A stretch of 64,000 bases of DNA from Halioglobus sp. Lineage in GTDB: Bacteria > Pseudomonadota > Gammaproteobacteria > Pseudomonadales > Halieaceae. Below are positions 53,410 to 64,000 of this stretch, piece by piece. Position numbers and translations under genes: made by a program. How positions within the stretch are numbered: position 1 is the stretch's first letter; every line of letters begins with the position of its first letter. The stretch is from the NCBI GenBank assembly GCA_020443425.1, contig JAGRIE010000001.1, positions 244,551 through 308,550 on the forward strand, read 5' to 3'. The notes below the pieces were generated by a model that saw nothing but the letters and a program-made list of their open reading frames with translations, had not been told where the DNA came from and did not search any database.

Positions 53410-54285
53410 TCAGGCGCCCAGTGCAGCGATCGCCTCAGCCAGTGCAAGTTGCCGCTTGGCCTCTTCGACATGCAGGTTTTCTACCAGCCGGCCATTCACC
53501 ACCACCACACCCTTGCCGAGTGCCATCGCCTCTTCAAAGCCGGCGATAATATCCCGGGCGGCAGCGATTTCCTGTTCATCCGGCGCAAACACGGCATTGG
53601 CGGCCGCTATCTGTTTCGGGTGAATCAGGCTCTTGCCGTCGAAGCCCAGGTCGCGACCCTGTTCGCAGGACTGGCGCAACAAGTCTTCGTTCTCCAGATC
53701 CAGCTGCACACCGTCGATAATCGTGAGGCCGTGCGCGCGACCGGCGTAGACACAGAGGTTGAGCGCGGTGATGAAGCCGAGGCGATCCGGTGTATGCCGC
53801 ACGCGGGTGTCTTTGGAAAGATCGGACGTGCCCATTACGATGCCGGCGAGTCGCGGGTGCGCCGCCGCCACTTCGGCAATGTTCAGGATGCACAGCGGTG
53901 TTTCAGCCATGATCCACATTGCCACACTGTCGGGACAACCGGCCTTCTCAAACGCGGTGATCGCCTCCACCACATCCGCCGCGGTGTCGATCTTGGGGAT
54001 CAGTACAGCATCCGGCGTGTTGGCAAACGCGCAAATCGCCTCGATATCAGCCGCCCCCCACTCTGTGGACAGCGCATTGATGCGGACAATCAGCTCACGA
54101 TGACCGTAGCCGCCCTCCGCCAGTGCCGCGCCGATCTGTTCCCGGGCGAGGGCCTTGGCATCCGGAGCGACAGAATCCTCCATATCCAGGATCAGGCCAT
54201 CCGCGGGCAGGGATCGCGCCTTGTCCAGTGCCCGGGGGTTTGAGCCTGGCATATACAGCAATGAGCGACGTGGCCTGATGGTCAT
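53410..54285 (-). CDS. HpcH/HpaI-family CoA-ester lyase, possible malyl-CoA thioesterase (Mcl2-like)
   Basis: A 291-residue CitE-like TIM-barrel enzyme. Opening RPRRSLLYMPGSNPRALDKA, metal and substrate residues in LILDMEDSVAP and MAETPLCILNIAEV, GTSDLSKDTRVRHTP, and SLIHPKQIAAANAVF. CitE-like proteins act on citramalyl-, malyl- or methylmalyl-CoA. Rhodobacter has two paralogues in the ethylmalonyl-CoA pathway, Mcl1 (lyase) and Mcl2 (malyl-CoA thioesterase). The divergent location from the mcd operon and a second, Mcl1-type gene 6 kb away suggest the Mcl2 role. ATG 54285 follows GAGGAATCCCAAT. Exact reaction not shown by sequence. Confidence 0.75.
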   Translation of the reverse strand: MTIRPRRSLLYMPGSNPRALDKARSLPADGLILDMEDSVAPDAKALAREQIGAALAEGGYGHRELIVRINALSTEWGAADIEAICAFANTPDAVLIPKIDTAADVVEAITAFEKAGCPDSVAMWIMAETPLCILNIAEVAAAHPRLAGIVMGTSDLSKDTRVRHTPDRLGFITALNLCVYAGRAHGLTIIDGVQLDLENEDLLRQSCEQGRDLGFDGKSLIHPKQIAAANAVFAPDEQEIAAARDIIAGFEEAMALGKGVVVVNGRLVENLHVEEAKRQLALAEAIAALGA

Positions 54286-54452
54286 ATTGGGATTCCTCGT
54301 TTGGGTGATTCTGCAGTGCCGGGTGGCAGCCGCCAAGGATACCCAAGGGGACAGTGCCTGAGCAAGTACAGCGGGGCTGATCCGCTGGCCCTGGTCTGCG
54401 TATAACCCGCTATTTAACAGGTTGTCTAATACGCCCTGAACCATTAAAATTC

Positions 54453-54474
54453 GCGGTTTGAATGATTAAACCGC
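54453..54474. promoter_or_regulatory. Dyad upstream of the ethylmalonyl-CoA operon
   Basis: Perfect 7-bp arms GCGGTTT (54453-54459) and AAACCGC (54468-54474) separated by 8 bp, 67 bp before the mcd start, in the 256-bp divergent gap between the CoA-lyase gene and mcd. A regulator site is likely; its owner is unknown. Confidence 0.5.
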
Positions 54475-54541
54475 TACAGGCGTTGCGGGTTCCCGCGATA
54501 TCCCGTTCCGGCACATTTAATACCACAGAGTAGGATCAATC

Positions 54542-56239
54542 ATGTCAGACGTTTCCCTGAATGACGGGCAGCAGCTCGAGCACGCCGTTGCTGTGCTAGC
54601 TGCCGCAACTCAACTCATCGACCGGTCACTGTCCGCGCTCAAGGCGCGGACGGCCCAGGACGGGCGCGTGCTGCCGGCGCGGCTGGACGAACACCAGCTG
54701 GCCTGCGTTGACCTGTCGGTCAGCTGGTCCGAGTGCACGGCCGCGAAGTTCCTGCTCGCACATGCCCAACGGCTGATCGCCGAATCCTCCGCGAGCAACA
54801 CTTTCACCACGCAATTGGCCACACTGTTCTGCGCCGATGCCGTCACCAACACCGTGAATCGCCTGCGCACCCGGCCGGCAGATTTCGGGCTCTCGCTGGC
54901 GGATATCAGCGCCATCGAGGCGGACGCCGCCACCGCCGGCTTCCTGCAACAGCAACTCGCGGCCCAGAACATCGCCGCCATTGGCCAGATGGTGCTGGAG
55001 CGCGACGGCGACCTCGGGCCCGACCTGCTGAGCGAACACCACACGATGATGCGCGACACCTTCCGCCGCTTCGCAGACGACGTGGTCGCACCGCTGGCGG
55101 AGGAAATCCACCGCCAGGACCTGATCATCCCCGACGAGATACTCGAACCGCTGAAAGAGATGGGCATGTTCGGGCTCTCCATACCCGCCAGTTACGGTGG
55201 CCTGCAGGAGGACGATCAAGAGGACACACTCGGGATGATCGTGGTCACAGAGGAGTTATCGCGCGGCTCGCTGGGCGCCGCCGGCAGCCTGATCACGCGG
55301 CCTGAAATCCTCTCCCGGGCCCTGCTCAAAGGCGGTACTGAAGAGCAGAAACAGCACTGGCTGCCGCAGATCGCCGTCGGCGAACCACTGTGCGCAGTGG
55401 CCGTGACCGAGCCCAATTACGGCTCCGATGTCGCCGGGGTGCGCCTGCGGGCCACGCCTACCGAAGGCGGCTGGCTGCTGAACGGCGCCAAAACCTGGTG
55501 TACCTTCGGCGGCAAGGCTGGCCTGCTGCTGGTACTGGCGCGCACCAGTGCCGACATGGAGCTGGGCCACCGCGGCCTGTCCATGTTCCTGGTCGAGAAA
55601 CCCTCCAGCGACGGGCATGATTTCGAGGTGACCCCCGAGGCCGGCGGTAAACTGACGGGCCGCGCGATCGCCACCATGGGCTATCGCGGTATGCATTCAT
55701 TCGAGCTGTTCTTTGACGACTTCTTCGTGCCGGCGGAGAACATGCTGGGCGACGCCGACGGCGAGGGCAAAGGCTTCTACTACGCGATGGCGGGGTTCGC
55801 GGGCGGACGTATCCAGACAGCCGCTCGGGCTGTCGGCGTGATGCGGGCGGCATTTGAGAAAGCGATCTCCTACGCCAAGGACCGCGTGGTGTTCGCACAG
55901 CCGATCGCGCAGTACCAGCTGACCCAGGTCAAACTGGCGCGCATGGCGGCCCTGCTGCTGGCCTGCCGGCAGATCACCTACGATGTAGCGGAACTGATGG
56001 ATACCGGTGCCGGTGATATGGAGGCCAGTGCCGCGAAAATATTTGCCAGTAAAACCGCTGAATGGCTGACGCGCGAAGCGCTGCAAATTCACGGCGGCAT
56101 GGGCTATGCTGAGGAGACGCCGGTGAGCCGCTACTTTGCGGATGCGCGCGTGCTGTCTATTTTTGAAGGTGCGGAGGAAACACTGGCCCTCAAGGTGATC
56201 GCCAGGTCCCTGGTCGAGAACGCGGGAGGCGCTGCCTGA
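54542..56239 (+). CDS. mcd: (2S)-Methylsuccinyl-CoA dehydrogenase
   Basis: A 565-residue acyl-CoA dehydrogenase that oxidises methylsuccinyl-CoA to mesaconyl-CoA in the ethylmalonyl-CoA pathway. Unlike ordinary dehydrogenases (about 385) it has an N-terminal helical extension of about 160 residues, the mark of Mcd. The core follows with SIPASYGGLQEDD, VTEPNYGSDVAGVRLRA, NGAKTWCTFGGKAGLL, LQIHGGMGYAEETPVSRYF and SIFEGAEETL, where the last Glu fits the catalytic base. AGGATCAATC precedes the ATG. First gene of a five-gene run with a MaoC hydratase, the mutase, MeaB and the lyase, which supports the specific call. Confidence 0.88.
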   Translation: MSDVSLNDGQQLEHAVAVLAAATQLIDRSLSALKARTAQDGRVLPARLDEHQLACVDLSVSWSECTAAKFLLAHAQRLIAESSASNTFTTQLATLFCADAVTNTVNRLRTRPADFGLSLADISAIEADAATAGFLQQQLAAQNIAAIGQMVLERDGDLGPDLLSEHHTMMRDTFRRFADDVVAPLAEEIHRQDLIIPDEILEPLKEMGMFGLSIPASYGGLQEDDQEDTLGMIVVTEELSRGSLGAAGSLITRPEILSRALLKGGTEEQKQHWLPQIAVGEPLCAVAVTEPNYGSDVAGVRLRATPTEGGWLLNGAKTWCTFGGKAGLLLVLARTSADMELGHRGLSMFLVEKPSSDGHDFEVTPEAGGKLTGRAIATMGYRGMHSFELFFDDFFVPAENMLGDADGEGKGFYYAMAGFAGGRIQTAARAVGVMRAAFEKAISYAKDRVVFAQPIAQYQLTQVKLARMAALLLACRQITYDVAELMDTGAGDMEASAAKIFASKTAEWLTREALQIHGGMGYAEETPVSRYFADARVLSIFEGAEETLALKVIARSLVENAGGAA

Positions 56240-56241
56240 CG

Positions 56242-57414
56242 ATGAGTATTTCACTGCCACTGTCACCCCAGGCCGAGATATCCGCCGATATTCCCGTCGA
56301 CGTCGACAAGGCGCGCCACCCGCAATACGGGCGCTATCTCGATGAACTGGAACCCGGGCAGGTGTTTGAACACCCGCGCGGCTTCACCTTCACCGCCAGC
56401 AATATGCTGGACTTCGCACGCACCTTCATGCAGGCCAATCCGCTGTACCTGAATGCGCAGTACGCGCGGGCGCACGGCTTTGCAGACCTGCTCGCCAGCC
56501 CACAGATGGTGTTCAACGTGACGCTGTCACTGGGTGTGCAGAACGACTCGGAAAAAGCCATCGCCAACCTCGGCTACTACCAGGTACAGTTTCTGCGTCC
56601 GGTCTACCCCGGCGACACCGTGCGCAGTTTCACCAAAGTGCTTGAGCGCAGGGACCGGGGGCCCGACAAACCGGGTATCACCCGTATCCGCACTGTCGGG
56701 GTGAACCAGCACAATGCCGTGGTGCTGCAATACGAGCGCAAGATCCTGGTCGGCTGGCGCGGCGACCGCCCCGCCACCACCCCGGCACCGGAGGTCACCG
56801 TCGATTTTCCGGGCGAGGAGGCACCGGTGCTGGAACTGCCGCTGACGGCGGCACCTGCCGGCGCCGGACTGACCGGGCCCAATACCTACTTTGAAGACTT
56901 TACGCCCGGCGATATTATCGTGCACGCCAACGGCCGCACCATCACTGACGAGCATATGGCGCTGACCTATATGGTGGGCAACAGCCATCCCCTGCACTTC
57001 GACCGCCTCTTCTCCAGCTCGCTGTCGGGCAAAATGAGCGGCGAGCCCATCGTGTACGGCGGACTGGTGTTCGCGTGGCTGGACGGACTGGCCAGCCGCG
57101 ATGTCAGCGAACACGCGGTGTGGGAGCTCGGCTTTACCGAGGGCTATCACACACAGCCGGCATTTGCCGGCGATACCATAGGCGCATTGTCGCGCGTGCT
57201 GTCGACAGAGCCACTGGCGGACTGTGATGACTACGGCGTGCTCACACTGCAACTGGTTGGCGTGAAGAATATTCGCGCCGCAGCGGCACTGGAAGCCCAC
57301 GGCGCCGACCTGTTCGTCAAGGAAGATAGCAAACGCGCAGTCGGCAAAGAAAAAATCGCCGACAAGATTTTCGAAATTGAGCGGCGCCTGCTGGTCAAGC
57401 GCCGCCCCCGCTGA
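56242..57414 (+). CDS. mch: MaoC-like double-hotdog hydratase, probable mesaconyl-CoA hydratase
   Basis: A 390-residue protein with two hotdog domains (about 25-170 and 205-345). The second carries the hydratase-type pattern in DEHMALTYMVGNSHPLHFD, with Asp and His in the usual R-hydratase places, then YGGLVFAWLDGLASRD. In the pathway the enzyme hydrates mesaconyl-CoA to beta-methylmalyl-CoA. It is longer than the about 345-residue Rhodobacter Mch, with an N-terminal leader and a C-terminal basic tail. Starts 2 bp after mcd, ends 11 bp before the mutase gene. The assignment leans on this position between mcd and ecm. Confidence 0.8.
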   Translation: MSISLPLSPQAEISADIPVDVDKARHPQYGRYLDELEPGQVFEHPRGFTFTASNMLDFARTFMQANPLYLNAQYARAHGFADLLASPQMVFNVTLSLGVQNDSEKAIANLGYYQVQFLRPVYPGDTVRSFTKVLERRDRGPDKPGITRIRTVGVNQHNAVVLQYERKILVGWRGDRPATTPAPEVTVDFPGEEAPVLELPLTAAPAGAGLTGPNTYFEDFTPGDIIVHANGRTITDEHMALTYMVGNSHPLHFDRLFSSSLSGKMSGEPIVYGGLVFAWLDGLASRDVSEHAVWELGFTEGYHTQPAFAGDTIGALSRVLSTEPLADCDDYGVLTLQLVGVKNIRAAAALEAHGADLFVKEDSKRAVGKEKIADKIFEIERRLLVKRRPR

Positions 57415-57425
57415 GGAGTCTCACT

Positions 57426-59426
57426 GTGAGTCAGGACACTGAAAAACGCGATCGCCCCTGGTTGATGCGCACCTACTCCGGGCACTCCTCGGCCAAGGCC
57501 TCCAACGAGCTCTACCGCACCAACCTGAGCCGGGGGCAGACCGGGCTGTCAGTCGCTTTCGACCTCCCGACACAGACCGGCTACGACTCCGATCACCCGC
57601 TGGCGCGCGGTGAGGTCGGCAAGGTCGGTGTACCGATCAACCACATCGGTGACATGGAGGCGCTGTTCGACCAGATCCCACTGGGACAGATGAACACCTC
57701 CATGACGATCAATGCGACTGCGCCCTGGCTGCTGGCTCTGTACGTCGCGGTGGCCGAGCGCCAGGGAGTCGACCCCGCGCAGTTACAGGGCACCACGCAG
57801 AACGATGTGCTGAAGGAATACCTGTCCCGCGGCACCTATATTTTCCCGCCCGCGCCGTCGGTACGCCTGACCACGGACCTGATCGCCTACACCGTGCAGA
57901 ATATTCCCAAGTGGAACCCGACGAATATCTGCAGCTACCACCTGCAGGAGGCCGGTGCCACGCCCACCCAGGAACTGGCCTACGCCCTGTCCACGGCCAC
58001 CGCCATCCTCGATGCGGTGCAGGCCAGCGGCCAGATTCCGCCCGATCGCTTCACCGATGTCGTCGGGCGCATCTCGTTCTTCGTCAACGCCGGCATCCGC
58101 TTTGTCGAGGAGACCTGCAAGCTGCGCGCGTTCGGCCGTATGTGGGACACACTCACGCGCGAGCGCTACGGGGTCACTGACGAGAAGCAGCGCCGCTTCC
58201 GCTACGGCGTACAGGTCAACTCACTGGGCCTGACCGAGTCGCAACCGGAGAACAACGTACAGCGTATCGTGCTGGAAATGTTGTCGGTGACACTGTCGAA
58301 AAATGCCCGCGCCCGCGCCATACAGTTGCCGGCGTGGAACGAGGCGCTGGGACTTCCCCGCCCCTGGGACCAGCAGTGGGCCCTGCGTATGCAACAGGTG
58401 CTGGCGCTGGAAACGGACCTGCTCGAATACGGCGACCTGCTCGATGGTTCCCCCGTGGTGGAGGCCAAAGTGCAGGCGCTGATCGACGGTGCCCACGAGG
58501 AGATGGCGCGGGTCGAGGCGCACGGCGGCATGGTGGCCTGCATTGACAACGGCTACGTGAAGCGCGAACTGGTGCAGAGCCACACCCGCCGCATGCGCAG
58601 TATCGAGAGCGGCGACCTGAAGATCGTCGGCGTCAACTGCTACCAGGAATCCGCCGAATCACCGCTAACGGCCGGTGAGGAGTCTGGCATCATGCGGGTC
58701 GACGAGCGCGCGGAGCGCGACCAGATCGCCTCGCTGCAGGCATTCCGCGACACCCGCGACAACAGCCAGGTGCAGCAGGCCCTGCAGGCCCTGCGCGACG
58801 CCGCATCCGATGGCAGCAACATCATGCCACCCTCCATCCAGTGCGCGCGAGTCGGCGTCACTACCGGCGAGTGGAGCGAGGTCCTGCGCGAGGTGTTCGG
58901 GGAGTACCGGGCGCCTACCGGTATCGATATCAGCCCGGTGGAGGGCAGCGATTCCGACGCCCTCGAAGGCGTGCGCAACCGGGTCCGCAGAACCGGTGAA
59001 GAACTCGGCCGCCCACTGCGCTTGCTGATCGGCAAGCCCGGTCTCGACGGCCACAGCAACGGCGCCGAACAGATCGCCGTGAAAGGCCGCGATGCGGGCT
59101 TTGAAATTGTCTATGAGGGCATACGCCTCACGCCGGCGCAAATCGCGCGCGCGGCCCAGGAGGAAGGTGTCCACCTGATCGGGCTCTCGGTGCTGTCCGG
59201 CAGCCATCTCGAACTGGTTGAGGATATCAACAGGGAACTGGACAGGATCGGCGCCACCGGCATACCACTGGTGATCGGCGGTATCATTCCCGAAGAGGAT
59301 GCCAGGCAGCTGCAGCAGCAGGGCTTGAAAGCCGTGTTCACACCCAAGGATGTGGATATGAACACCATCATGAATACGATGGTCACCATCATTCGCGAGG
59401 CCAATGGCCTGGAGCCTGCGGCCTGA
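57426..59426 (+). CDS. ecm: Ethylmalonyl-CoA mutase
   Basis: A 666-residue adenosylcobalamin-dependent mutase converting ethylmalonyl-CoA to methylsuccinyl-CoA. The N-terminal TIM barrel opens RPWLMRTYSGHSSAKASNEL and includes GLSVAFDLPTQTGYDSDHP, GQMNTSMTINATAPWLLALY and IPKWNPTNICSYHLQEAGAT. The C-terminal B12 domain has the DxHxxG motif in LIGKPGLDGHSNGAEQIAV. It is shorter than methylmalonyl-CoA mutase (about 715), and its opening and size match the Ecm branch. GTG start after GAGGAGTCTCACT. Flanked by mch and its own MeaB. Confidence 0.92.
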   Translation: MSQDTEKRDRPWLMRTYSGHSSAKASNELYRTNLSRGQTGLSVAFDLPTQTGYDSDHPLARGEVGKVGVPINHIGDMEALFDQIPLGQMNTSMTINATAPWLLALYVAVAERQGVDPAQLQGTTQNDVLKEYLSRGTYIFPPAPSVRLTTDLIAYTVQNIPKWNPTNICSYHLQEAGATPTQELAYALSTATAILDAVQASGQIPPDRFTDVVGRISFFVNAGIRFVEETCKLRAFGRMWDTLTRERYGVTDEKQRRFRYGVQVNSLGLTESQPENNVQRIVLEMLSVTLSKNARARAIQLPAWNEALGLPRPWDQQWALRMQQVLALETDLLEYGDLLDGSPVVEAKVQALIDGAHEEMARVEAHGGMVACIDNGYVKRELVQSHTRRMRSIESGDLKIVGVNCYQESAESPLTAGEESGIMRVDERAERDQIASLQAFRDTRDNSQVQQALQALRDAASDGSNIMPPSIQCARVGVTTGEWSEVLREVFGEYRAPTGIDISPVEGSDSDALEGVRNRVRRTGEELGRPLRLLIGKPGLDGHSNGAEQIAVKGRDAGFEIVYEGIRLTPAQIARAAQEEGVHLIGLSVLSGSHLELVEDINRELDRIGATGIPLVIGGIIPEEDARQLQQQGLKAVFTPKDVDMNTIMNTMVTIIREANGLEPAA

Positions 59427-59437
59427 ATTGCGGCGCA

Positions 59438-60433
59438 ATGAACGCACCCGACACTGACAGCACGGCCGCACTCGCCGCTGCCATTGCCGCCGCCGACCGC
59501 GCCGCGATCGCACAGGCATTGAACCTGCTGGATGACAGGCGCCCCGTCGCACGGGAGCAGGCGGCGGCGTTGCTGGGCCTTCTGCAGCGCGACCAGGACC
59601 GAGCCGGCGGTCACCTGATCGGCATTACCGGCCCGCCCGGCGCCGGCAAATCCACATTGAGTGCCGCGCTGATACGTGTGTGGCGGCGCCGCGGTTTACG
59701 CGTTGCGGTGCTGGCGGTGGATCCATCCAGCCCGCTCAGCGGCGGCGCCCTGCTCGGTGATCGCCTGCGGATGCAGACCAGCGCGGAGGACGACGGTGTA
59801 TTCGTCCGCTCGCTGTCCAACCGCGGCCAGTTCGGCGGCTTGAGCGCCGAGGTCTGGCCGATGAGCGTCGTGATGCTCGCCGGTTTTGACATCGTGCTGA
59901 TCGAGACTGTCGGTGTCGGACAGCGCGAGGTGGATGTCTCGCGCCTGTGTGACACCACCTGTTACGTGGCGCAACCCGGTTCCGGCGACAGTGTGCAGTT
60001 CCTGAAAGCCGGTATTCTCGAGGTGCCGCATATCCTGGTGGTCAACAAGGCGGATATGGGCGCCGTCGCCACCCGCACCCTGTCAGAACTCAGTTCCGCG
60101 CTCAAACGCACCCATCCCGACGGCGACTGGCAGGTGCCAGTACTGGCCACCAGCGCCGCCAGTGATGATGGCGTCGAAGCACTGGCCGACGCCCTGGAAC
60201 AGCACTACCAGTTGCTGCTGTCACAGCAGCGGCTGTCGCAGCGACGCAGGCACTACCAGTCCTACTGGCTGCACAAGCGGCTGCTGGAGGAATTCGGCAG
60301 CTTCGGTATAGAACGACTCGGCGGCGAACAGCAGTTGCTCGCGCAGATAGAGTCACAGCCGATGAACCTGTACCACCAGTACCAGACGCTGCGCCAGCGC
60401 CTGTATACTGCTTTCCATGACATCAACAGTTAA
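59438..60433 (+). CDS. meaB: MeaB/ArgK-family GTPase, ethylmalonyl-CoA mutase chaperone
   Basis: A 331-residue G3E-type GTPase that protects and reloads B12-dependent mutases. Walker A GPPGAGKS at 65-72, the switch segment [21 protein letters not shown], Walker B region IVLIETVGVGQREVDV, and NKAD as guanine specificity motif. It lies 11 bp after ecm, so it probably serves that enzyme. A second, quite different MeaB gene sits beside the methylmalonyl-CoA mutase on the other strand (61857-62816). Confidence 0.92.
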   Translation: MNAPDTDSTAALAAAIAAADRAAIAQALNLLDDRRPVAREQAAALLGLLQRDQDRAGGHLIGITGPPGAGKSTLSAALIRVWRRRGLRVAVLAVDPSSPLSGGALLGDRLRMQTSAEDDGVFVRSLSNRGQFGGLSAEVWPMSVVMLAGFDIVLIETVGVGQREVDVSRLCDTTCYVAQPGSGDSVQFLKAGILEVPHILVVNKADMGAVATRTLSELSSALKRTHPDGDWQVPVLATSAASDDGVEALADALEQHYQLLLSQQRLSQRRRHYQSYWLHKRLLEEFGSFGIERLGGEQQLLAQIESQPMNLYHQYQTLRQRLYTAFHDINS

Positions 60434-60454
60434 GCCGCTCCTTCGGAGGTAAAC

Positions 60455-61504
60455 ATGCGCAGTCCCCGTGATTTTTTTCGTCCCCTCGCCCTCGGTGCTC
60501 CCCAGCCGGTGCACGATATTCCGGTGCGTCCCTCGCGCATGATCCACTTCTTCGATCCCAGCAATCCCAAAATGGTGGAAAAAGCACCGGGGATCGCCAA
60601 GCGGGTTGATATCCTGCTGGGCAACCTGGAGGACGCAATCGCCATCGACAACAAGGAGGCGGCACGCGAAGGCTTTATCAAAATCGCGCAGGACAACGAC
60701 TTCGGTGACACCCAGCTGTGGACCCGCATCAACAGCCTCGACAGCCCGTGGTTCCTCGATGATATTACGCGAATCGTCACCGAGGCTGGCGACAAGGTCG
60801 ATGTGATCATGCTGCCGAAAATCCAGGGCGCATGGGATATCCATTTCGTCGACCAGCTGCTGGCCCAACTGGAGGCGCGCGCGGGGTTGAAAAAACCGAT
60901 TCTGCTGCACTGCCTGCTGGAGACGGCACTCGGGGTGGCAAATGTGGAAGAGATCGCCAACGCCAGTCCCCGCATCCAGGGCATGAGTCTCGGGCCGGCC
61001 GACCTGGCTGCATCGCGGCGCATGAAAACCACTCGCATCGGCGGCGGCCACCCCGGCTATGTGGTCCGCGATGATCCGGATGAAAGCAACCCGGACGCCC
61101 CGCGCGCCACCCACCAGCAGGATTTGTGGCACTACACCATGGGCCGCATGGTAGACGCCTGTGTCGCAGTCGGCGCCCTGCCCTTCTACGGTCCTTTCGG
61201 CGCGATCGACGATCCCGTGGCCTGTGAAGACCAGTTCCGCAATGCCTTCCTGATGGGCTGCGTCGGGGCCTGGTCACTGCATCCCAGCCAGATAGACATC
61301 GCCAAAAAGGTGTTCAGCCCACCGCCCGCCGAGGTGGTGTGGGCCAAGCGTGTACTGGACGCCCTGCCCGACGGCAGCGGCGCGGTGATGGTAGACGGCA
61401 AAATGCAGGACGATGCCTCGTGGAAACAGTGCAAGGTGATGGTCGACCTCGCGCGCCTGATCTCCGAGAAGGACCCGGAGCTGAAAGCCCAGTACGGTTT
61501 CTGA
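60455..61504 (+). CDS. mcl1: L-Malyl-CoA/beta-methylmalyl-CoA lyase (Mcl1-like)
   Basis: A 349-residue CitE-superfamily lyase that splits beta-methylmalyl-CoA to glyoxylate and propionyl-CoA, and can also act on malyl-CoA. Features: [39 protein letters not shown] with the acidic metal-site residues, [20 protein letters not shown] and [14 protein letters not shown], closing with [24 protein letters not shown] precedes the ATG. Last gene of the mcd-mch-ecm-meaB-mcl1 run, 21 bp after meaB. It is about 30 residues longer than the Rhodobacter enzyme (318). Confidence 0.88.
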
Positions 61505-61525
61505 GTGGGCGGCCTGATGCCGGGG

Positions 61526-61843
61526 CTAGTCCTCCAGCATCAGGCCCAGTTCATTGCCCTGGTATATCACAGGGTAGAGACGCAGGCCGCGGCACCGCTC
61601 TTCGGTGGCGTGCAGCAGGCGGCCATCGGCGAGGGAGAACTCGTACTGGTGCAGTGGGCAGCGCAGCACACCCCCATCGATATCAGCCGTACCCAGGGGA
61701 TGTGAGCGGTGCGGACAGTTCGCCTCAAGCAGGTGCACCTCACCCTGGCGCTGCGTCAACAGCAGCTGCAGGTTATCGATCTTGAATTGTCGCGAGTAGC
61801 CGTCACGCAGGTTGATCAGCTTTTCGAGCGGTTGAAAGCGCAT
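61526..61843 (-). CDS. Small Rieske-type [2Fe-2S] protein
   Basis: A 105-residue Rieske ferredoxin. Iron ligands Cys43 and His45 (CPHRSHPL) and Cys62 and His65 (CPLHQYEFS) are complete, with the expected spacing. No signal peptide, so cytosolic. ATG 61843 is preferred to a start within meaB because the fold begins here. Third gene, 13 bp after meaB, of a mutase-meaB-Rieske run, and tail-to-tail with mcl1. It could serve an oxygenase or repair step; its partner is not in the window. Confidence 0.82.
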   Translation of the reverse strand: MRFQPLEKLINLRDGYSRQFKIDNLQLLLTQRQGEVHLLEANCPHRSHPLGTADIDGGVLRCPLHQYEFSLADGRLLHATEERCRGLRLYPVIYQGNELGLMLED

Positions 61844-61856
61844 GGTGGCGACCGTG

Positions 61857-62816
61857 TTACAGATGTTCCATGATTTGTTTGACCGCGGCAAAGGCTGTGA
61901 TCTCCTGGCGTTCTACCGCGCGCTCAAGATCCGGCAGCAGTGACTTCACGGTGGCATTCTGCGACAGCTTCAGCAACAGCATCTCGTTCAGCAGCTGGCG
62001 CATCCAGTCCAGATTCTGCTGGTTGCGTTTGCTGATGAACGCATTGCACGCCAGCGCCTCGTAGTAGTACTCCAGCAACATCGCCCAAACGGCGTCGATA
62101 TTGTGCGAGGTCAGTGCGGAACAGGTCATCACCCGCGGCGTCCAGAAGCTGTTGTGGCGCAGCAGGCTCATGGCGCTGGTGTACTGGCGCTGTGTCATGC
62201 CGGCGAGTTTTTCGCTGTCGCCGTCCGCCTTGTTGATCACCAGCGCATCCGCCAGCTCCATAATGCCTTTCTTGATCCCCTGTAACTCGTCACCGCCGCC
62301 CGGCAGCATGAGGACCATGAAGAAATCGACCATACCGGCGACCTGGTACTCGGACTGCCCGACACCGACAGTCTCGACCAGGATGACATCGTAGCCGGCG
62401 GCTTCACAGAGCAGCATGGTTTCGCGCGTTTTCTGCGCGACACCACCGAGCGCGCCTGCCGCCGGCGTCGGCCGTATAAAGGCCTCCTCGCGCCGCGAGA
62501 GTTCCTCCATCCGCGTCTTGTCGCCCAGTATGGAGCCGCCGGCAATCGGCGAGCTGGGATCGACCGCGAGCACGGCAACGCGCTTGCCCTGCTCGATCAG
62601 GTAGAGGCCAAACGCCTCGATAAAGGTGGACTTGCCGACCCCCGGCACGCCGGTGATACCGACACGGATGCTGTTGCCGCTGTGCGGCAACACCTCCTCG
62701 AGGATGGTTTGCGCCTGCTCCCGGTGCGCGTCAAGCGAACTCTCGATCACCGTGATGGCCTTGGCGAGGGCGCGGCGGTTGCCGCCCAGCAGTTGCTGCA
62801 GGTCGAACTGGCTCAT
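61857..62816 (-). CDS. meaB2: MeaB-family GTPase, methylmalonyl-CoA mutase chaperone
   Basis: A 319-residue G3E GTPase. Walker A GVPGVGKS at 56-63, [21 protein letters not shown] switch region (in part), [20 protein letters not shown], and the NKADG specificity motif. It is 35 bp downstream of the mutase fragment and differs clearly from the plus-strand meaB, as expected for separate chaperones of the two mutases. The gene symbol only marks it as the second copy. Confidence 0.92.
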
Positions 62817-62851
62817 GTCACGTTAACCGTGTTGCGGACGTGGTGGCATGC

Positions 62852-64000
62852 TCAACCCTGGACCGATTTCACCGCTTCCAGCACTTCTCGCGCGCACTGG
62901 GGAATAGGCGTGCCGGGGCCGAAAATGCATTTCACACCGGCCTCGTAAAGGAAGTCGTAGTCCTGCCGCGGAATCACCCCGCCTGCAATGACAACGATAT
63001 CCTCAGCGCCCTGCTTCTTCAGTTCCGCGACCAGCTCAGGCACCAGCGTTTTATGGCCCGCTGCCAGCGAGGACGCGCCGACCACGTGCACATCGTTCTC
63101 AATCGCCTGCCGCGCGACTTCTTCCGGGGTGGAAAACATCGGTGACAGGTCGATGTCGAAACCGACATCAGCAAAGGCCGTGGCGATTACCTTGGCACCG
63201 CGATCGTGTCCGTCCTGGCCCATTTTGCACACCAGCATACGCGGGCGACGGCCGTGTTCAGCGACAAAACTATCGATGTCCTTGCTGATATCCTGCCAGG
63301 TCTGGTCGGTTTCAAATGCAGCGCCATAGACACCGGATACGGTTTGCGCCTGTGCCTTGAAGCGGCCGAATTCGCGTTCCATGGCAAATGAGATCTCCCC
63401 GACGGTCGCGCGTCGACGCGTGGCCTCAATGGCCAGTTCCAACAGGTTCCCCTCACCGCTCACCGCACACTGGTAGATGGCTTCCAGTGCCGCTTCGACC
63501 GCGCTTTCATCGCGGCTTTCACGAATGCTGGCGAGCCGCGCCAACTGCGATTTCCGCACCGCCGCGTTATCGATGTCGAGGATATCGACATTGCCCTCTT
63601 CCTTGACGCGGTACTTGTTCACGCCGACGATCACATCCTCACCGCGATCGATACGCGCCTGCTTCTTGGCGGCAGCCTCCTCAATACGCATTTTCGGCAT
63701 ACCGGTTTCAATCGCCTTGGCCATGCCGCCGGCGGCCTCCACTTCCTCGATCAACTCCCAGGCTTTGTCGGCGATGTCCTGCGTCAGGTTCTCCATCATG
63801 TAGGAGCCACCCCAGGGATCGACCACTCGCGTGATACCGGTCTCCTCCTGGATGATCAGCTGCGTGTTGCGGGCGATGCGTGCGGAGAACTCGGTCGGCA
63901 GTGCGATCGCCTCATCCAGCGCATTGGTGTGCAGCGACTGGGTGCCGCCGAAGACGGCGGCCATGGCTTCTATCGTGGTGCGCACCACATTGTTGTAAGG
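62852..64000 (-). CDS. Methylmalonyl-CoA mutase, C-terminal part (5' end beyond window)
   Basis: About 382 codons of a B12-dependent mutase that makes succinyl-CoA from methylmalonyl-CoA. The visible part starts within the barrel ([41 protein letters not shown]) and ends with the cobalamin domain, with DxHxxG in [16 protein letters not shown] and the [14 protein letters not shown] and [15 protein letters not shown] segments. Family length about 715, so half is off the edge. With propionyl-CoA carboxylase it would recycle the propionyl-CoA made by mcl1. Identity as MCM rather than a second Ecm is based on these motifs. Confidence 0.9.

Follow-up and report, generated by a model that had tools for sequence, protein, structure and literature searches.

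The window analysed here, a stretch of 64,000 nucleotides from the Halioglobus sp. assembly GCA_020443425.1 (Halieaceae), carries towards its right end a run of five plus-strand genes, mcd-mch-ecm-meaB2-mcl1 (54542-61504), whose products were assigned to the lower half of the ethylmalonyl-CoA (EMC) pathway. Since the defining enzyme of this pathway, crotonyl-CoA carboxylase/reductase (Ccr), was searched for and not found, the cluster is not filed as an EMC pathway and is treated as a module that would work like its lower half. It is proposed that this module is fed by the carboxylation of butyryl-CoA through an adjacent enzyme of the propionyl-CoA carboxylase (PCC) type, a proposal whose chances we consider about evenly balanced. 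A conserved lower-half EMC module without Ccr appears to be new, and a search of the open-licence literature returned nothing linking the EMC pathway to Halieaceae (other publications may exist in print).

Search for Ccr and assignment of the module enzymes

With the NCBI model TIGR01751, the best match in the window's assembly scored 106 bits against a cut-off of 378.6, and the same search detected ccr in a Caulobacter positive control. The search covered 145 genomes (G000-G144, G000 being the window's genome), in which at least 31 were ecm-bearing among the matches listed, a listed Ecm match of at least 50% identity being required for this call. Ccr was absent from 30 of these 31, the sole genome over the cut-off being G100, and it was found in none of the 22 listed ecm-bearing genomes that are at least 90% complete, G000 among them. 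Additionally, ecm is present and ccr was not found in the more distant G117, which is a single contig and 100% complete. The sequence-only reading had described the whole path from ethylmalonyl-CoA onwards, had called for a ccr search and had named a genome lacking ccr as evidence against itself; with no ccr found, the cluster is not a complete canonical EMC pathway. Its remark that ccr and the epimerase are missing from the window is accurate for both, and the epimerase lies on another contig, C146, whereas ccr is not merely outside the window, since nothing in the assembly exceeds the cut-off.

The window ends where contig C111 ends, and the break falls inside mcm. Contig C146 of the same assembly starts with mcm residues 1-262, after which come genes for the epimerase (136 aa), a biotin carboxylase of 938 aa and a carboxyltransferase; the ends of C111 and C146 share no sequence, and part of mcm is absent from both. 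C146 probably continues C111, because the gene order in relatives runs that way, the order mcm-epimerase-biotin carboxylase-carboxyltransferase being unbroken in most relatives read. Although this break at the cluster and the 94% completeness of G000 could suggest a canonical EMC pathway with ccr hidden in an assembly gap, such an explanation is very improbable in view of the 22 genomes at 90% completeness or more and of G117, and in relatives the place past the break is taken by the carboxylase unit and not by ccr.

A control scan of named genomes took the best 80 of 589 confirmed Ecm places and, among these, 45 genomes, mostly Streptomyces being left out. TIGR01751 found ccr in 39 of these 45 ecm-bearing genomes, or 39 of the 41 outside Halieaceae. 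The six without ccr were four Halieaceae metagenome-assembled genomes (MAGs), one uncultured bacterium and one deltaproteobacterial MAG. The four Halieaceae MAGs (L071-L074) probably repeat genomes already counted and bring no independent evidence, the Ecm of the two Haliea MAGs L072 and L073 being identical to that of G045 and G077. In the other two (L093 and L128), which are ecm-bearing, lie outside Halieaceae and lack ccr, a MeaB gene follows ecm.

Ccr-related reductases can carboxylate, and ethylmalonyl-CoA might instead be supplied by a non-homologous or unrecognised reductive carboxylase, or derive from scavenged ethylmalonate or methylsuccinate, which we regard as unlikely. A 1855-aa frame with a Ccr-like region in G110 speaks for an unrecognised enzyme, and the frames flanking the cluster, annotated in part, leave room for an uptake gene; however, the best Ccr-like scores were no higher in 15 ecm-bearing than in 10 ecm-lacking genomes, and no weaker match particular to the former was seen. 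Frames of 1811-1855 aa with such a region (142-162 bits) occur in G028, G029 and G050 of Halieaceae and in their relative G110, three of the four without a listed ecm, and are presumably propionyl-CoA synthases, judging by their length.

As far as sequence comparison can tell, the cluster is a genuine EMC module, in which Ecm, Mcd, Mch and Mcl1 are all EMC enzymes; the earlier assignment of these genes to the pathway, as opposed to unrelated acyl-CoA dehydrogenases and hydratases, was borne out by structure matches, by discriminating positions of Ecm and by the Ecm tree. The predicted B12-dependent ethylmalonyl-CoA mutase Ecm (57426..59426, plus strand) shares 63-67% identity with the products of ecm genes adjoining ccr in Streptomyces and Alphaproteobacteria, and agrees with Ecm at each of the 106 positions that distinguish Ecm from methylmalonyl-CoA mutase (Mcm), as defined from 35 Ecm rows of ccr-bearing genomes and 5 Mcm rows. 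Residues aligned to what we take to be Tyr89, Arg207 and His244 of Mcm, sites placed by alignment, are conserved in all 62 Ecm rows, and the Arg207 equivalent (alignment position 135) is Arg in these and in 5/5 Mcm rows. Mcd (54542..56239, plus strand; 565 aa), a putative (2S)-methylsuccinyl-CoA dehydrogenase, has a long N-terminal part and matches the methylsuccinyl-CoA dehydrogenase structure PDB 8ciw best, with 614 bits over residues 21-561, about twice the score of the next structure (6es9, 312 bits; next acyl-CoA dehydrogenase, 249). The weakest assignment among the module enzymes is Mch (56242..57414, plus strand), a candidate mesaconyl-CoA (beta-methylmalyl-CoA) hydratase, which matches PF19315 (MC_hydratase) with 70 bits against a cut-off of 26.5, PDB 4e3e with 137 bits and the beta-methylmalyl-CoA dehydratase 8hgn with 117 bits, its matches to the NCBI models of RipB and 2-methylfumaryl-CoA hydratase staying below their cut-offs. 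Itaconate degradation by RipABC was not indicated, since Mch scored 141.5 against the RipB cut-off of 340, and the CitE-like protein encoded next to mcd 154 against the RipC cut-off of 375.

Mcl1 (60455..61504, plus strand), the predicted malyl-CoA/beta-methylmalyl-CoA lyase, is of the Chloroflexus type, with 512 bits to PDB 6kin and 4l7z versus 211 bits to the Rhodobacter enzyme 4l9y, and so belongs to another phylogenetic subgroup than the Rhodobacter EMC lyase. The accessible part of PMC3832036 assigns 4l7z and 4l9y to their source organisms and places the lyases of Chloroflexus and Rhodobacter in different subgroups that catalyse essentially the same reactions. This type of lyase would also suit the 3-hydroxypropionate bicycle, where mesaconyl-CoA proceeds through citramalyl-CoA to pyruvate, a role that seems highly unlikely here. 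The CoA transferase beside mcl1 in Accumulibacter, which we take from its position to be mesaconyl-C1-CoA-C4-CoA transferase, had no match (E 1e-50) in any of the 12 ecm-bearing genomes tested, and such a continuation is largely excluded for these genomes. The same search gave matches in two of six ecm-lacking genomes and in the Accumulibacter source genome. The two copies, 55-57% identical to that of Accumulibacter, belong to the ecm-lacking Halieaceae G022 (G022:C14:13922-15124) and G027 (G027:C17:336067-337263); the mesaconyl-CoA transferase route and the ecm module may exclude each other.

The product of meaB2 (59438..60433, plus strand), a second MeaB-type GTPase (TIGR00750, 257 bits, over the cut-off), is probably the chaperone of Ecm, judging by its distribution. 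Thirteen of the 15 ecm-bearing genomes tested have a MeaB in the ecm cluster at 55-100% identity, besides the mutase-linked MeaB1 at 34-37%; in G110 and G117, which make up the remainder, the MeaB adjoining ecm is more distant (34 and 32% identity, respectively). Among the 10 ecm-lacking genomes no MeaB copy exceeds 39%, and in nine the search gave one match each. Additional copies, at 43-44%, were found in G011, G013 and G110 near a further mutase, which fits one MeaB per mutase.

Butyryl-CoA carboxylation as a candidate entry

In the proposed route, Ecm with MeaB2 would convert ethylmalonyl-CoA to methylsuccinyl-CoA, Mcd would oxidise this to mesaconyl-CoA, and Mch would produce beta-methylmalyl-CoA, which Mcl1 would cleave into glyoxylate and propionyl-CoA, the latter being led to succinyl-CoA by the convergent carboxylase-epimerase-Mcm-MeaB1 unit. 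At the entry, the adjacent PCC-type enzyme would carboxylate butyryl-CoA, a C4 intermediate of beta-oxidation, in a biotin-dependent reaction, and the resulting ethylmalonyl-CoA would be epimerised by the epimerase of the carboxylase unit. The net outcome would be the conversion of butyryl-CoA and two CO2 into glyoxylate and succinyl-CoA, alongside the glyoxylate shunt. Our confidence in butyryl-CoA carboxylation as the entry is moderate. The wider proposal, that Halieaceae and some relatives possess a Ccr-independent EMC route in which one carboxylase-epimerase pair acts twice, on butyryl-CoA and on propionyl-CoA, with net CO2 uptake from fatty-acid carbon and with MeaB2 as Ecm's own chaperone, is more tentative and falls a little short of an even chance.

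This entry was proposed because the neighbouring unit includes a biotin carboxylase, because its carboxyltransferase has Ala at a chain-length site discussed in PMC5187497, and because two ecm-bearing genomes, G101 and G142, have two carboxyltransferases only, one of which is this Ala-type subunit. In relatives, the convergent unit is headed by the biotin carboxylase, which in the window's genome lies across the contig break. The biotin carboxylase/carrier subunit of this Halieaceae propionyl-CoA carboxylase (L045:3700-6513; L170:1215-4028 in the window's genome) is unusual, since it has 938 aa with long insertions and reaches at most 114 bits to a solved structure. The carboxyltransferase resembles PCC beta subunits and has Ala at the PccB Asp site (D421/422) at 30 of 30 loci, ecm-bearing and ecm-lacking alike; the count was made by alignment at loci of at least 40% identity, with L171 and L172 (<40%) left out and one genome (L052, L074) probably counted twice, and the register of the site was checked against the Asp and Ile carboxyltransferase types of two Streptomyces genomes. 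As stated in the available text of PMC5187497, an Asp-to-Ala exchange allows PccB to bind butyryl-CoA, and Ala is found in MccB, an enzyme that produces alkylmalonyl-CoA independently of Ccr. A residue other than Asp at this site is an indicator of butyryl-CoA acceptance and no strict criterion for it. The epimerase exceeds the TIGR03081 cut-off in G001, and the window's genome has a 96% identical copy on C146. A second carboxyltransferase particular to ecm-bearing genomes was considered and rejected, since match counts, which were not resolved paralog by paralog, were alike, with 5-7 in nine ecm-bearing members of the genus versus 3-6 in ten ecm-lacking Halieaceae.

Several observations weigh against a butyryl-CoA entry. 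According to an excerpt of PMC7835884, a Thermobifida enzyme has Asp and yet takes butyryl-CoA, and an Asp-to-Ile exchange lowered its butyryl-CoA activity; the Asp/Ala residue is therefore no sole determinant, and acceptance of butyryl-CoA by the Ala-type carboxylase is putative. Relatives that lack ecm also have the carboxylase unit, with Ala at the same site, which indicates that it is probably the normal propionyl-CoA carboxylase of Halieaceae. Additionally, the unit and the ecm cluster lie on different contigs in G101, G142 and G110 and far apart in G117, and a search of the unit found no epimerase gene in G011, G013, G101 and G142. Finally, G039 has ecm and mcd, with neither mch nor mcl1 in the cluster.

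The glyoxylate shunt bears on what the module is for. The window's genome encodes a Pseudomonas-type isocitrate lyase of the long type (PDB 6g1o, 895 bits), and matches of like kind (PF00463, looser limit) occur in 83 of the 90 Halieaceae genomes, G000 and G004 having been inspected individually and the others judged by length and score. No PF00463 match was found in the ecm-bearing G032 (94% complete) and G039 (91% complete). An earlier view, based on TIGR01346 at E 1e-60, that isocitrate lyase is absent family-wide and that the module is the acetate route was dropped in light of the PF00463 matches. Malate synthase G was matched in 18 of 18 genomes tested, 15 over the cut-off; in G000 the gene (G000:C122:55353-57514) is read in two overlapping frames, which reflects an assembly error or a real frameshift. 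A complete glyoxylate cycle has been reported for six Halieaceae strains in the part of PMC10100682 that is accessible, and Paracoccus holds both the shunt and the EMC route (PMC10370305, in excerpt). Since isocitrate lyase and malate synthase G are encoded, acetate growth does not need the module, contrary to the role implied by the sequence-only reading; a use other than acetate is likely, and the module is in general no stand-in for the shunt.

The same evidence invites a salvage explanation, in which the carboxylase accidentally makes a little ethylmalonyl-CoA and Ecm, Mcd, Mch and Mcl1 dispose of it productively as low-flux metabolite repair. In mammals, ethylmalonyl-CoA arises as such a side product of a carboxylase and is cleared by ECHDC1 (PMC8473548 and PMC6717113, as far as their available text goes), the shunt genes already cover acetate, and the carboxylase also stands without the module within Halieaceae. 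However, five dedicated enzymes and a chaperone are much for the repair of a trace product, and a mutase match is present in 64 of the 65 Halieaceae genomes without a listed Ecm (including G006 and G014, whose clusters are broken), so that the propionyl-CoA unit seems not to demand such repair. Salvage is considered less likely than the flux route, though more likely than an alternative source of ethylmalonyl-CoA. The equal presence of the carboxylase without ecm fits flux and salvage routes alike and decides neither.

Gene order and evolution of the module

The arrangement described in the sequence-only reading, a five-gene plus-strand run with a divergent lyase-like gene and a convergent mutase unit, was reproduced in open reading frames, strands, coordinates and gaps, the intergenic distances in the run being 2, 11, 11 and 21 bp. 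Divergent from mcd lies the gene of a CitE-like CoA-ester lyase or malyl-CoA thioesterase ('mcl2'; 53410..54285, minus strand; PF03328, 156 bits), with a likely start at 54285 and a frame open from 54444, whose best PDB matches are the malyl-CoA lyases 5ugr and 4l9y (148 and 142 bits) and which adjoins mcd in most relatives read. Convergent with the run is a rieske-meaB1-mcm unit on the minus strand, composed of a Rieske ferredoxin-like gene that is part of the mutase locus and is found in ecm-lacking relatives too (61526..61891; PF00355, 44.5 bits), meaB1, the predicted methylmalonyl-CoA mutase chaperone (61857..62816; NF006958, 470 bits, over the cut-off), and mcm, for methylmalonyl-CoA mutase, with its 5' part cut off (62852..64000; NF006944, 618 bits from profile position 343 on). 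The gene order of the cluster recurs in relatives, with one clear exception, G039 (L054, G039:C1:15000-34999), in which a search of the cluster found ecm, mcd and meaB2, and no mch, mcl1 or CitE-like gene. G006 and G014, initially counted as lacking ecm, have contigs that break inside the cluster, with mcl1, and in G014 also meaB2, at the edge. Two of the three nearest relatives (L046:12581-13558, L061:9483-10616) carry, between the convergent units, a dioxygenase-like gene that is absent from the window and presumably of the phytanoyl-CoA hydroxylase type, from a motif recognised by eye. In five genomes, G117, G110, G100 and two of Accumulibacter, the gene immediately upstream of mcd encodes a protein of about 480 aa with DUF6986 (L055:15042-16481, L056:4800-6236, L059:4372-5811, L077:5611-7050, L079:5591-7030; PF22484 tested in three). 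Profile comparison with shallow alignments related it to Mcl1 (probability 76%, E 2e-5) and to the CitE-like gene (probability 70%, E 4e-5), and the protein may belong to the EMC route as an unrecognised lyase of the CitE superfamily.

In a quick Ecm tree, Halieaceae form one clade (support 99), joined next by G120 (91) and then by Competibacteraceae with an uncultured proteobacterium (97); Accumulibacter, Propionivibrio and G101/G142 lie further out, and actinomycetes and Alphaproteobacteria outside. Its rows were hand-chosen, 62 of 131 for Ecm, leaving aside duplicates and most of the Streptomyces rows, and 5 of 30 for Mcm; a long-branch warning applies to G100/G110/G117. The sequence-only reading had left a choice between horizontal gain and a gammaproteobacterial lineage with its own version; the tree favours the latter, and a recent gain from Alphaproteobacteria or actinomycetes is unsupported, since Ecm groups with Competibacteraceae, the uncultured proteobacterium and Accumulibacter. 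A single ccr-less clade is not favoured, as at least four state changes are needed on this tree and a grouping of Halieaceae, G120, G101 and G142, named after seeing the tree, was rejected (p-value of the AU, approximately unbiased, test 0.03). Seven ecm-lacking Halieaceae loci (L156-L162) have a carboxylase-epimerase-mcm-meaB1 unit whose rieske/meaB1 end is separated from the flanking DUF7931 gene by 9 bp to 1.8 kb. This implies an older propionyl-CoA unit, next to which the module was either inserted or lost. The MAGs L072 and L073 have a different left flank. The G+C content of the module, 63.2% compared with 60.6% to its left, or about 3 standard deviations of like-sized overlapping windows there, is a mild hint of foreign origin.

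The missing key enzyme, together with the lack of mch and mcl1 in the G039 cluster, could also point to a decaying remnant after ccr loss; this seems very unlikely, because strong purifying selection was observed in the two nearest pairs and because the module is kept in at least 25 of 90 Halieaceae genomes from four genera, a gap not caused by a contig end being seen, among the loci read, only in G039. Compared with the two nearest relatives read, the ratio of nonsynonymous to synonymous substitution rates (dN/dS) was lowest for mcl1 (0.01-0.02), followed by ecm and mcd (0.04-0.06) and then by mch and meaB2 (about 0.10), with an overall span of 0.01-0.11 at dS 0.9-1.6, indicating that selection keeps the module.

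Comparison with known systems

Compared with the EMC pathway of Rhodobacter and Methylobacterium, Ecm, Mcd, Mch, Mcl1, epimerase, PCC and Mcm all appear to be present here, whereas Ccr is lacking, isocitrate lyase and malate synthase are encoded, Mcl1 is of the Chloroflexus type and a second MeaB gene stands beside ecm. The nearest Ecm relatives belong to clusters of the order mcd-mch-ecm-meaB2-ccr, which is the same in two Accumulibacter genomes and the uncultured proteobacterium and, from ecm on, in Propionivibrio. In these genomes ccr follows meaB2, whereas in Halieaceae mcl1 occupies that slot and ccr was not found; in Competibacteraceae the contig ends inside meaB2 and ccr lies on another contig. 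Genome surveys usually recognise the EMC pathway by Ccr, so that Ccr-free versions would be overlooked. An EMC pathway with ccr has already been published for Gammaproteobacteria, namely for Candidatus Contendobacter (PMC8956781, accessible text).

If the proposed butyryl-CoA entry is correct, the first reaction of the pathway would be swappable, the reductive carboxylation of crotonyl-CoA being exchanged for an ATP-dependent carboxylation of butyryl-CoA that couples beta-oxidation with the uptake of CO2; Halieaceae are reported to be abundant in coastal seawater (PMC10100682, in part). A close parallel for such an entry is MccB of the stambomycin cluster, where Ccr is likewise missing, the carboxylase is biotin-dependent and Ala occupies the chain-length site (PMC5187497, in the text available); MccB feeds a polyketide synthase with medium-chain units, whereas the proposed Halieaceae product would be ethylmalonyl-CoA for central metabolism. 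Mammalian ECHDC1 also handles ethylmalonyl-CoA as a side product, by decarboxylation with one enzyme, in contrast to the conversion to glyoxylate and propionyl-CoA proposed here. With a carboxylase entry, a compound that is treated as something to remove in mammals would become a metabolic intermediate in these bacteria.

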